A stretch of DNA of 64,000 nucleotides from Candidatus Bathyarchaeota archaeon (lineage in GTDB: Archaea > Thermoproteota > Bathyarchaeia > Bathyarchaeales > Bathycorpusculaceae): positions 124,001 through 188,000 of the forward strand of contig JAOZHV010000052.1 in NCBI GenBank assembly GCA_026014725.1. The letters are read 5' to 3'. The position numbers and the translations under genes are program-made. The stretch's first letter is position 1. Every line of letters starts with the position of its first letter. This document shows positions 19,628 to 60,861 of the stretch, in pieces. The notes beneath the pieces are model-generated. The model did no database searches. It worked only from the letters and a program-made list of their open reading frames with translations, and was not told where the DNA came from.

Positions 19628-19777
19628 CAACCGAACCACTGATTGTGCAACGCCACAACCAACCATCAACGCAAACCAAACCCAAAAACCAAAAAGCAAC
19701 ATTCCACACAACCCACTGCTTGTTGTTGTGAGGGGAGAGGGGGGTCACACCCAACAACCCCCAAAAAAACAAACATC
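19628..19777 (-). repeat. dispersed repeat family B, copy 1
   Basis: On the minus strand this stretch begins with a T-rich run, contains ACCCCCCTCTCCCCTCACAA and then TGGTTGGTTGTGGCGTTGCA, matching copy 2 at 59376-59520 over most of its length (for example both have GGTTGGTTGTGGxxGTTGCA followed by CAAnCAGT). It fills the 19513-19877 gap downstream of the PAC2/small membrane protein pair. A 68-codon frame spans it but its translation has no domain and is not conserved in the other copies. Confidence 0.6.
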
Positions 19778-32918: not shown

Positions 32919-33062
32919 GCGCTTACCGCTACTTGTACTGCGTCCACAACCAACAAGTAATCCAAACCAGACGCAGGCACAAAAAAGCAATGCGCAGATA
33001 AACCCGCTGGAAGATGATGAGCAAGGAAGCTACTTTCTTCTTCTACTACTAGAAAAAACAAA
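32919..33062 (-). repeat. dispersed repeat family B, copy 3
   Basis: On the minus strand this follows tRNA-Pro directly. It begins with a T-run and TTCTAGTAGTAGAAGAAG, includes CTCATCATCTTCCAGCGGG and GTTGGTTGTGGACGCAGTAC. It matches copy 4 at 55740-55883 at roughly 60 of 82 positions in its first part and copy 2 in its second part (GTTGGTTGTGGA...TACAAGTAG versus GTTGGTTGTGGA...CACAAGCAG). The 32720-32918 part of the gap holds TTAAG repeats (32836-32870) and nothing else recognised. Confidence 0.62.
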
Positions 33063-33078
33063 AACCGAAAACAAGTGG

Positions 33079-33153
33079 TGGGGCTGCCCGGATTTGAACC
33101 GGAGTCTATAGAGCCCAAGTCTACAAGCCTAGACCAAGCTAGCCGACAGCCCC
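33079..33153 (-). tRNA. tRNA-Pro (TGG)
   Basis: Minus-strand cloverleaf: acceptor GGGGCTG/CAGCCCC, D stem GGCT/GGCT with two G-U pairs, anticodon stem GTAGA/TCTAT with loop CTTGGGC (anticodon TGG), four-base variable region, T stem TCCGG/CCGGG with loop TTCAAAT, discriminator A. No intron and no encoded CCA. A T-run (33052-33066, minus strand) follows and probably ends transcription, coinciding with the start of repeat B copy 3. Confidence 0.95.
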
Positions 33154-55739: not shown

Positions 55740-55883
55740 GATGGTTGCTGCTTGCGGATTTGGCTACAACCTGCCTGCAGTTTGGGGCTAACGCTGACGC
55801 AAAAAAGCAATCCATCGCAAAGTCTGCTGGTAGATGATGAGTAGGGCAGGCACTCTCTTCTTCTACTAATAAAAAAAACAAAC
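55740..55883 (-). repeat. dispersed repeat family B, copy 4
   Basis: On the minus strand: T-run, TTAGTAGAAGAAGAGAGTGC, CTCATCATCTACCAGCAGA, GGATTGCTTTTTTGCG. The best match is copy 3 (32919-33062). Element A copy 3 lies about 25 bp from its T-rich end. Together they fill the 55625-56025 gap, in which no gene is seen. Confidence 0.62.
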
Positions 55884-56025: not shown

Positions 56026-56307
56026 ATGAGTTCAGACAAGGAAATGCGCAAAATCCCAACCAGCCGCATCAAAATCCTAACCAAAGACGCCAAACAAATG
56101 GTCAACGGACCATACTACTGCCCAAAATGCCGAAAAGAACTCCTACAAATCTACGCTGACGTCAAAAACAAACAAGCCTACGCCATATGCAAATGCGGAC
56201 TAGAATGGCAACTAACCTACGCCCCAGTCTTCCAACCCATTGACTACTACAACAAATTTCGAGACCTCTGGAAAAAACAAAGCTACGGCATAATCAAACA
56301 AAAATAA
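56026..56307 (+). CDS. zinc-ribbon protein
   Basis: 93 residues. A central zinc ribbon (YYCPKCRKELLQIY ... YAICKCGLEWQL) with four cysteines, flanked by charged ends. The C-terminus PIDYYNKFRDLWKKQSYG looks like an aromatic/basic helix for protein or nucleic-acid contact. Unknown role; adjacent genes encode membrane and secreted proteins. Confidence 0.7.
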   Translation: MSSDKEMRKIPTSRIKILTKDAKQMVNGPYYCPKCRKELLQIYADVKNKQAYAICKCGLEWQLTYAPVFQPIDYYNKFRDLWKKQSYGIIKQK

Positions 56308-58596: not shown

Positions 58597-59253
58597 TTAT
58601 TGTGGTTTTTCGTTAGGTTTGAAAAGTTTCTTTTGGTATTGTGATTTAGGCTTAAAACCCCTAATTGGCTGGCGTACCATGGCTCGCTGTCGTTCAAGGT
58701 TTTTTATGCGTGCATAGAGCTTGGAGACTTTGGTTTTGGACGGCACTTTTGATTTTGGTTTATGAATTGGTACAGGCGTGAATGGTTGAGTGATTTCTAG
58801 CTTCGTCCGCTTGGATTTCTTGAATGGAGCATCACGCACTTTCTTGAATGTAACGTGCCCTTCTTTGAGGTTGACTTCCTGCACTTCCCAGCCTGCATTT
58901 AGCCAAGCCTTCGTGTGGATGCTTGATGAGTTGTTGCTCCACCATGCAGGGTCTCGGTAAGCGTTCATTGGGAGGTTGCTGCCGATTAAGCCGTCGATGC
59001 GTGCAAATGAAAGCTTCACTAGGTTTGTGAATGACGCTCGGAATTTTAGGTGGCTTTCAAGTCCAGCGTACTTGGATGCGGTTCGTGGTGAAACTATTCG
59101 TCTGGCGCAGTGCAGGCAAAGCATTTTGGTTGGGTCGCCTGTGGCAACATCTGGGGTCATACAGTCTCGGCAGAACAGTTTTTTGCAACGTTCGCACTTG
59201 CGCATGTATGTAGTTTGTATTACTCTGCCGCATATGCCGCATTCATCTTTCAA
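58597..59253 (-). CDS. zinc-finger protein with DUF7662-like domain
   Basis: 218 residues. N-terminal cysteine-rich zinc-binding part (CGICGRVI ... CERCKKLFCRDCM ... CLHCARR, residues 5-50). The middle (IDGLIGSNLPMNAYRDPAWW, then AWLNAGWEVQEVNLKEGHVTF) matches a small DNA- or effector-related domain found in many archaea and bacteria (I recall it as DUF7662-like). The C-terminal ~70 residues are strongly basic and low-complexity. Likely nucleic-acid binding. Confidence 0.65.
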   Translation of the reverse strand: MKDECGICGRVIQTTYMRKCERCKKLFCRDCMTPDVATGDPTKMLCLHCARRIVSPRTASKYAGLESHLKFRASFTNLVKLSFARIDGLIGSNLPMNAYRDPAWWSNNSSSIHTKAWLNAGWEVQEVNLKEGHVTFKKVRDAPFKKSKRTKLEITQPFTPVPIHKPKSKVPSKTKVSKLYARIKNLERQRAMVRQPIRGFKPKSQYQKKLFKPNEKPQ

Positions 59254-59375: not shown

Positions 59376-59520
59376 GTGTTTTCTTTTCTAGTAGTTGTTG
59401 TGTAGCCCCTCCCTCTTTCAACAATTAGCGGGATGTCTAAAGCGTTGTTTGTTGGTTTCTGTTTGTGGTTTGGGTTGCTGGTTGGTTGTGGATGTTGCAC
59501 AAGCAGTAGGGTGAGTTTTG
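59376..59520 (+). repeat. dispersed repeat family B, copy 2
   Basis: Plus strand: TTCTTTTCTAGTAGTTGTTG, GCCCCTCCCTCTTTCAACAA, then GGTTGGTTGTGGATGTTGCA and CAAGCAGTAGGG. Best match copy 1 (pyrimidine-rich centre and the GTTGGTTGTGG block). Together with flanking T-rich sequence it fills the 59254-59571 gap. An overlapping 62-codon frame (59433-59621) is hydrophobic but not conserved in the other copies. Confidence 0.58.
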
Positions 59521-59571: not shown

Positions 59572-60861
59572 CTACGTGGTGGTTTGGTTCCAGTAGTAAA
59601 CTGTCTTGTACTCTACTTTAGAGACTGGGTAAGCTGAATCCTCATAGACTATGTCTAGGCTGGTGCCATATTTTGCCAGCAGTTCACTCATGATTGTTGC
59701 GATTTGCTGTGTTTTATCGTCTGTTGACCAGAACCCCCAGATGGTGTCGTTGGGGTTGCGCATGCCCCACCCGTAATTGTGAGGCAAAACCAGCGCTACC
59801 TCAGGGCTACTTTTATCCACAAACTGTTTGTTGTTGATGTCGTTCCAGAACCGTTCAAGCGCAAGGTAATGTTGCTTAGTCATAGCTGCTGCGGTGTTGC
59901 CCTTATCATCTTTGGCGTAATTAAAAATCGTTATGTACTTGGCGCCTGCTTGATAGGCGCTGAGCATTTGGCTGTAAATTTTCTCTGGAGTATCAAGGAA
60001 AGGCACCTCATCGTACTTCCATGTAATCATGGCGCCCCACTCCTTATCCTGAAGCCGCGCTGCACCTTTCACTTGAGCTATCTGCTGAGCAACACTCGCA
60101 TTCCACCCTAACTCAGCAAATAAAACATCGTATCCCCCTAAATAATCCCACCAATAGAGCCCATAATCAGAAGTGAAAGTGGTAATTCCTACAGCATTTA
60201 AGGTTGAAAGCCCCGGGTCACCATCACTTAACACTTCATTAATGAAAAATTCCGCTTCTAAATCATAGTTTTCAGGCTCAGTGCCATTATAGACGAAATC
60301 AAGCATTTTGAGATATATCTCATAGAGCGCTTGGAGTGCGGGATGGTCATGGCCGCTTAGGTTTTCTCCATAAGCTCTATACCAGTCTGCCCAGTACCCA
60401 TCCAACTGGATTCCACCTGGTTCATCGTTGTAATACATACCAAGGAACTTGTCGCCCCAGCGTTGTGTCCAGTTCTGCTTGATGCTGTCCAGTGGTTCCA
60501 GCCAAAACCAAGTAGACTCGTTTTTTTCTATAACATCATAGATGCCTAAGTTAACTATGATGCTTAATCCGTTTGCTACGGCGTAATCGCAGGCTTCATA
60601 CACTGCAGACTGGTTCCTGCTCAACACGCTTCTGCCCGAATCTAAAATAAACAGGTTAGTGTACGCTTTTGTTCTGTCGATAAGCGCTTTCGCTTCAGCG
60701 GTGGTGTTTCCGCAAAAAGCAACCCCGACAAAAACGCCTGGGTCCGCTTTCACTCGGCTCCAGCCTAAATAGTACATGTGAAAGCCCAAGATTGAAACTG
60801 CCAGAACTGTAATCAGCAAGGCTCCAACAACATACTTACCAATTCTTTTGAACCCGCTCAC
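59572..60861 (-). CDS. secreted glycoside-hydrolase-like TIM-barrel protein
   Basis: 429 residues. N-terminal membrane anchor (YVVGALLITVLAVSILGFHMYYL), then an outside domain with strands typical of alpha-amylase-like or GH-related barrels (GLSIIVNLGIYDVI, KFLGMYYNDEPGG, VGITTFTSDYGLYWW, GAMITWKYDEVPFLDT, YITIFNYAKDD). Possible catalytic acids are Glu in NDEPGG and Asp/Glu in KYDEV. At least eight N-x-S/T glycosylation sites. The sugar substrate is unknown; family assignment is by fold pattern only. Confidence 0.6.
   Translation of the reverse strand: MSGFKRIGKYVVGALLITVLAVSILGFHMYYLGWSRVKADPGVFVGVAFCGNTTAEAKALIDRTKAYTNLFILDSGRSVLSRNQSAVYEACDYAVANGLSIIVNLGIYDVIEKNESTWFWLEPLDSIKQNWTQRWGDKFLGMYYNDEPGGIQLDGYWADWYRAYGENLSGHDHPALQALYEIYLKMLDFVYNGTEPENYDLEAEFFINEVLSDGDPGLSTLNAVGITTFTSDYGLYWWDYLGGYDVLFAELGWNASVAQQIAQVKGAARLQDKEWGAMITWKYDEVPFLDTPEKIYSQMLSAYQAGAKYITIFNYAKDDKGNTAAAMTKQHYLALERFWNDINNKQFVDKSSPEVALVLPHNYGWGMRNPNDTIWGFWSTDDKTQQIATIMSELLAKYGTSLDIVYEDSAYPVSKVEYKTVYYWNQTTT

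Follow-up and report, generated by a model that had tools for sequence, protein, structure and literature searches.

The PATEs of Haloquadratum walsbyi are multi-copy archaeal elements too short to encode a transposase; they have palindromes near their termini, mostly no TIR and heterogeneous copies, and they nest with other small elements (PMC3119063). Their palindromes resemble IS605-type transposons of the same genome. REPs and REPINs are short intergenic units of two palindromes with a near-fixed spacer and a TAG or GTAG by the palindrome, which form species-specific subfamilies and tandem clusters, lie near gene 3′ ends and reach tens to hundreds of copies (PMC3116915, PMC3733652). GTAG REPs have been reported from bacterial phyla, the halves of a REPIN are inverted copies of one sequence, and REPINs go with a RAYT. 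MITEs of DDE insertion sequences have been reviewed (PMC10969869).

The repeat described here, the core, was studied from a window, the whole stretch of 64,000 nucleotides that was analysed, corresponding to positions 124001-188000 of contig C52 in a 2.56-Mb, 63-contig genome of a Candidatus Bathyarchaeota archaeon (G000). As far as the available part of the PATE account goes, all of the PATE features listed above recur in the core except the kinship with IS605: most copies have palindromes near both ends, no TIR and no coding capacity, but no palindromes shared with an IS200/IS605 transposon were found, there being no Y1 transposase in G000, and no insertion sequence with core-like ends is known. 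The T-run with which the core starts and its orientation to the edges of transcription units have no counterpart in that part of the account. The likeness to REPs and REPINs extends to the features given for them in the first list, with a tag beside palindrome 1 that is common but differs in G015 (see below); the core is, however, archaeal, its two palindromes differ from each other, and RAYT/Y1 is absent from G000 and from G018, the congener with the most copies. Because no Y1 transposase was found in G000, membership of the REPIN/RAYT or IS605-PATE systems is not claimed. A minority of copies resembles the MITEs of DDE elements in having TIRs shared with a relative's 1.1-kb insertion sequence and TTAA/TTAT-like target letters, whereas most copies lack such ends and the core and TIR families are distributed differently among genomes.

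The repeat is best explained as a mobile, PATE/REPIN-like unit, about 135 bp long, non-autonomous and dispersed, whose T-run end settles at the edges of transcription units (probability about 0.6). Bathyarchaeia would then hold a REPIN-like repeat without a RAYT, patchy in occurrence, high in copy number, with species-specific palindromes and oriented at the edges of tRNA and housekeeping genes. Two questions become testable: what moves small palindromic repeats where there is no Y1 transposase, and whether compact archaeal genomes put repeats of this kind to use as terminators or insulators. The description of the family can also be used in annotating these MAGs.

The four window copies and the architecture of the core

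A search of G000 with copies 3 and 4 of the window as queries found about 42 different places, 30 of which were used to build a covariance model, R1. In the window R1 finds exactly the four copies given by the initial annotation, on the same strands, with 101-127 bits and E values of 1.8e-19 to 6.9e-25; the four are themselves among the sequences from which the model was built, and blastn between non-identical copies, which is independent of it, gives E values down to 1e-40. The four islands align with one another over about 135 bp, and the length of about 145 bp first given for the repeat shortens to this figure when the coordinates are tightened. Chance similarity of T-rich DNA was ruled out by the blastn results, by the model scores and by the core word TTGGTTGTGGANGTTGCACAAGCAGT at the right end of copy 4, for which the chance expectation in the window is 0.00 (patterned word, shuffled windows). 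A coding origin was also ruled out: the copies contain short, overlapping ORFs only and are non-coding, as had been said of them.

Copy 1 (19638..19774, minus strand; E=1.9e-21) belongs to the GTTGTTG/CAACAAC subtype, with its T-run end at 19774 and its right end (CAATCAGT) at 19638. It had been placed downstream of a pair of PAC2 genes. A PAC2 gene (PF09754) is indeed nearby, but the adjoining gene is the next one after it, which encodes 88 aa and ends 103 nt from the copy. Copy 2 (32928..33062, minus strand; E=6.9e-25), of the AAGAAG/CATCATC subtype, lies 13 nt downstream of a tRNA-Pro(TGG) gene (33076..33153, minus strand), and its T-run (TTTTTT, 33053..33058, minus strand) follows 17 nt behind the CCA end of the tRNA. 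The position at the tRNA-Pro T-run, originally assigned to copy 3, is thus that of copy 2. Palindrome 1 of copy 2 (GTAGAAGAAGA...TCATCATCTTC) occupies 33010..33046 and palindrome 2 (ACTTGTTGGTTGTGGACGCAGTACAAGTAGC), which is the right end of the element, 32928..32958, both on the minus strand.

Copy 3 (55747..55882, minus strand; E=1.8e-19) is of the AAGAAG/CATCATC subtype; an Elf1-like gene (56026-56307, plus strand) lies 143 nt downstream of its T-run end. Copy 4 (59378..59507, plus strand; E=4.5e-22), of the GTTGTTG subtype, stands between two genes on the minus strand: the one at 58597-59160 starts 217 nt from its T-run end, and the one at 59572-60861 has its 3′ end 64 nt away from its right end. 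Copies 3 and 4 had been paired by their first parts; by the subtype of palindrome 1, copies 2 and 3 (AAGAAG) belong together, as do copies 1 and 4 (GTTGTTG).

Read in the T-run orientation, the core is (G)TTTTTT-CTAG(TAG)-palindrome 1-GCGG..TTG-about 20 nt-TTGC(T)TTTTTG-..GTTTGGGTTGC-palindrome 2-CAAGCAG, the spacer between the palindromes holding a second T-tract. Its length is near-constant (mode 134-138 nt for most copies in five species) and its ends are sharp: outside the stretch from the T-run to CAAGCAG the information equals background, save for a weak T-richness that extends over about 12 nt upstream. The two palindromes are unlike each other, palindrome 1 being GTTGTTG/CAACAAC or AAGAAG/CATCATC and palindrome 2 GGTTGTGG/CACAAGCAG. 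The subtypes of palindrome 1 are AAGAAG../CATCATC, GTTGTTG../CAACAAC and GATGATG../CATCATC. Its loop and arm letters vary by species (..GTTGTGGGGGACCCCTCTTTACACAAC.. in G015, ..GTTGCCGAAAACCCCCTATACACAAC.. in G018 and ..GTTGTAACAGAAAAGCCCCTATACCACAAC.. in G024), and the species-specific sequence is carried by most copies of a genome. When the GTAG/GTWG tag of REPs was looked for beside palindrome 1, TAGTAG was common there and the G015 copies had TATAGTTG instead.

Two further observations concern the arrangement of copies. In G000 the copies L006 (C22:222382-222532) and L053 (C1:28070) have a common right half and about 50 nt of common flank and differ in their left halves, a likeness that appears as after recombination within the element. 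In G018 diverged cores stand head to tail, 18-73 nt apart, at L093:17100-17423, L101:8484-8775, L103:970-1264, L113:13616-13955, L121:7375-7704, L100:4053-4388 and L127:6333-6632.

Pairing in the two palindromes

RNAalifold gave no structure on a MAFFT alignment, because the trinucleotide-repeat arms slip by three columns. For a manually defined structure, a choice that biases the pair counts in its favour, and an alignment fitted to the model, 84.6% of cells are paired; shuffles give 78.4% and slid controls give lower values. Covarying stems had been proposed as a mark of a real RNA or mobile family. Among 120 copies from five species, helix 1 shows a strong correlation with strict Watson-Crick pairs (z=13), which rests on few subtype switches and not on many events, while the covariation in helix 2 does not exceed what the make-up of its columns gives. 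One-sided transitions in helix 2 mostly keep a G.U pair on the plus strand (95 vs 11), and the wobble bias of helix 1 is the opposite (1 vs 20). Folding is weak by z-score (mean -0.7 to -1.0), with similar values for the two strands. From the pairing, covariation, wobble and fold statistics together, the palindromes are real, and they may be recognised either as RNA or as DNA.

That the core is a structured small-RNA gene family, another of the original proposals, is nevertheless very unlikely. Such a family would have the two palindromes, a helix 1 that stays complementary across subtype changes and a helix 2 whose changes favour G.U on one strand, but the contrary bias of helix 1, the few switches behind its covariation, the silence of helix 2 and the strand-indifferent folding leave no consistent hairpin strand signal. 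There is also no covariance-model match to the repeat in Rfam 15, and neither flank of the core copies has a conserved promoter at a constant spacing. A box C/D RNA was considered because one subtype reads ATGATGA on its reverse strand, and was ruled out, as the box is missing from the other subtypes.

Dispersal and position relative to genes

The initial annotation had asked for more than four copies, and R1 gives 58 matches in G000 at E<=1e-3. The core is present in 13 of 32 genomes of the genus, with at least 104, 90, 58, 58, 49, 27, 16, 11, 6 and 6 copies and three genomes with one each, where copies within one genome are related and the counts are not independent events; the R1 search found none in the other 19. 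The highest count is that of G018, while G043 has 58, G015 49, G024 27 and G007 one. Among 163 genomes of the order the core was also found in five of other genera of the same family, one of which has 15 copies. Scans of GTDB r220 contigs and IMG/VR for the exact core, which were exact or without source genome, gave nothing, and the repeat had no blastn match among collections of phages and plasmids.

The copies are intergenic. The genes next to them mostly differ between species, and the copies are mostly at non-orthologous sites; copy identity is 0.70-0.77 within species and 0.67-0.71 between species. G000 has one element behind each of tRNA-Pro(TGG) and tRNA-Pro(CGG). The promoter region upstream of tRNA-Pro(TGG) is conserved in seven relatives, all of which are without the element behind the tRNA, and the element is absent behind tRNA-Pro(CGG) in eight relatives. 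As the same tRNA-Pro genes of eight relatives are without it, the element disperses: the core is dispersed within genomes and its presence at the tRNA-Pro sites is lineage-specific. Together with the high and patchy copy number and the presence of some copies in TIR-bounded MITEs (see below), this supports the suggestion, made at the outset, of a non-autonomous mobile element. No otherwise identical pair of filled and empty sites was found between species, and no copy was caught moving, because intergenic DNA of different species cannot be aligned beyond promoters and tRNAs. Two gene pairs that resembled empty sites were rejected as not clean, the neighbouring genes having moved.

By analogy with PATEs and REPINs, we suggest that a trans-acting enzyme recognising the two palindromes copies the core, which would then settle, or survive, with its T-run end against the edges of transcription units. 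No transposase with core-like ends was found; in these genomes, which are MAGs, insertion sequences may be missing. In a search confined to Y1 transposases (PF01797), matches number 0 in G000 and G018, and they occur in 15 of the 32 congeners in a manner unrelated to core number. An observation against mobility is that copies at shared sites are not each other's nearest.

Distances to genes were taken from gene calls made by a simple codon-usage script, so some of them are off. Over 169 copies from six genomes, gene 3′ ends are a median of 67 nt from the T-run end against 139 nt from the far end (p=0.0015), and for gene starts the medians are 117.5 nt from the T-run end against 239 nt from the far end (p=1e-6). 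The T-run end has seven tRNAs inside a distance of 20 nt, at 0-17 nt and all with their 3′ end towards it, and the far end has none; T-runs follow tRNA-Pro, tRNA-Val and tRNA-Ile. When gene 3′ ends in general are counted to the same distance, there are 18 on the T side and 9 on the far side, which is not significant alone (p=0.12). Copy L012 is preceded, at about 20 nt, by a tRNA-Arg according to ARAGORN. The idea of a 3′-end element is therefore supported in part, in that the T-run end abuts the 3′ ends of tRNAs and genes, yet the copies that face promoters outnumber those that do so.

In archaeal termination, U-tracts act with aCPSF1 (PMC8716108), and transcription from archaeal promoters can run either way (PMC6640164). 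Given these properties, the T-run may be a ready-made U-tract terminator for read-through from tRNAs and genes or for transcripts of divergent promoters. As it would terminate incoming transcripts, insertions could be harmless or even useful, and the mobile repeat has perhaps in part been taken over as a boundary of transcription.

An orientation is also seen at sites that different species have in common. At nine distinct sites the T-run end faces the same gene start, and at none does the far end (p=0.0055); at gene 3′ ends, one shared site has the T-run end and three have the far end facing the gene. Four species have a copy at one site, which lies upstream of a 236-aa gene that matches nothing in Pfam, and there the promoter letters are conserved up to the T-run. 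Copies at sites common to two to four species are mostly no more alike than random pairs; this could be explained by gene conversion, by repeated insertion at the same place or by change in step with a trans-acting factor. The genes at shared sites include those for thermosome, SRP54, a PNP-family phosphorylase, a TrmI-like methyltransferase, lysyl- and W/Y-type aminoacyl-tRNA synthetases and proteasome alpha, and neighbours of copies also include uS10, eL42 and DnaJ, a list biased by the fact that housekeeping genes are the easiest orthologues to match between species. At L119:250-300 (G018:C9), upstream of eL42, the right half is missing and what is present is a T-run and a palindrome 1 whose loop is shortened; the eL42 site in G000 has a full copy (L170).

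The nine oriented sites, the site filled in four species, the housekeeping neighbours and the species-specific palindrome 1 could also be read, with U-tract termination and two-way promoters in mind, as those of a host cis-element. This would be a terminator, insulator or regulator site kept by selection ahead of housekeeping promoters and downstream of tRNAs, its palindrome 1 co-evolving with a trans-acting protein. We regard such an element as somewhat unlikely, since the core is missing from 19 of 32 congeners and varies from one copy to dozens elsewhere, many copies occupy sites not shared between species, MITEs carry this core as well, gene-end and promoter copies do not differ in the length of the T-run, and the list of neighbours has the bias just described. 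It is improbable, too, that a once-mobile repeat is now a lineage-wide transcription-boundary system, with dozens of copies in a fixed orientation at housekeeping promoters and tRNAs and a palindrome 1 that would change species-wide because a dedicated protein reads the copies.

Cores carried by MITEs with the ends of an ISH3-like insertion sequence

The mobile repeat is in some cases part of a larger unit. Many G018 copies are framed by CAGTAGATCAAA...TTTGATCTACTG ends. The CAGTAGATCAAA ends bound units of about 183 bp with a single core, the TIR pairs lying 173-185 bp apart, and also one 341-bp unit with two cores in tandem. Among 63 G018 copies, TIR-like ends were seen on the left of 19, on the right of 21 and on both sides of 10, compared with 1 and 1 in control windows. 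Both ends are present at 5 of 44 G000 copies; further copies have one end and the rest none. The few G000 copies with TIR-like ends include L160, L163, L166 and L171, the last being bounded by both terminal repeats over 185 bp (L171:3977-4161 = G000:C52:19639-19823).

The same ends belong to a 1113-bp insertion sequence in G018 (L110:13857-14969 = G018:C22:38857-39969), which has perfect CAGTAGATCAAA terminal repeats and is flanked by TTAT. Its 347-aa protein matches DDE_Tnp_1 (PF01609; 1.1e-11) and scores 173.8 bits with the ISH3 family model, below the family cut-off of 225. A full copy was found in G018 only; other congeners have partial relatives of it. The same terminal repeats, with no core between them, also bound a second MITE of about 256-278 bp (L111:9669-9944, L113:11185-11460, L125:18968-19241, L126:3083-3359, L126:15002-15279, L126:18444-18721 and L130:6141-6396). 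A minority of cores is thus the cargo of MITEs of about 183 bp whose ends match those of an ISH3-like insertion sequence.

A rival account is that all copies were simply MITEs of this insertion sequence and have mostly lost their CAGTAGATCAAA ends by decay. TIR-bounded copies do occur in both G000 and G018, and beside some TIR-less copies there are T/G-rich letters resembling those just inside the TIR. This account is, however, highly improbable. The G000 copies that are most alike (88-94% to the subtype consensus), and so probably the youngest, have no TIR; G043, G015 and G024, rich in cores, have 2-4 exact TIRs each, and G007 has 8 with its one core; and there are 276-bp TIR elements without a core. 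Since TIR and core counts are unlinked across genomes and the most alike G000 copies are TIR-less, the core is treated as a unit of its own that is sometimes found in MITEs.

A short repeated motif, GACCTCCCCTCCC(C)TTATTTAAAG, and its complement are frequent in the intergenic flanks of G018 and G000, sometimes just outside the TIRs; examples are at L106:2040-2230, L093:6025-6510 and L160:3890-3990.
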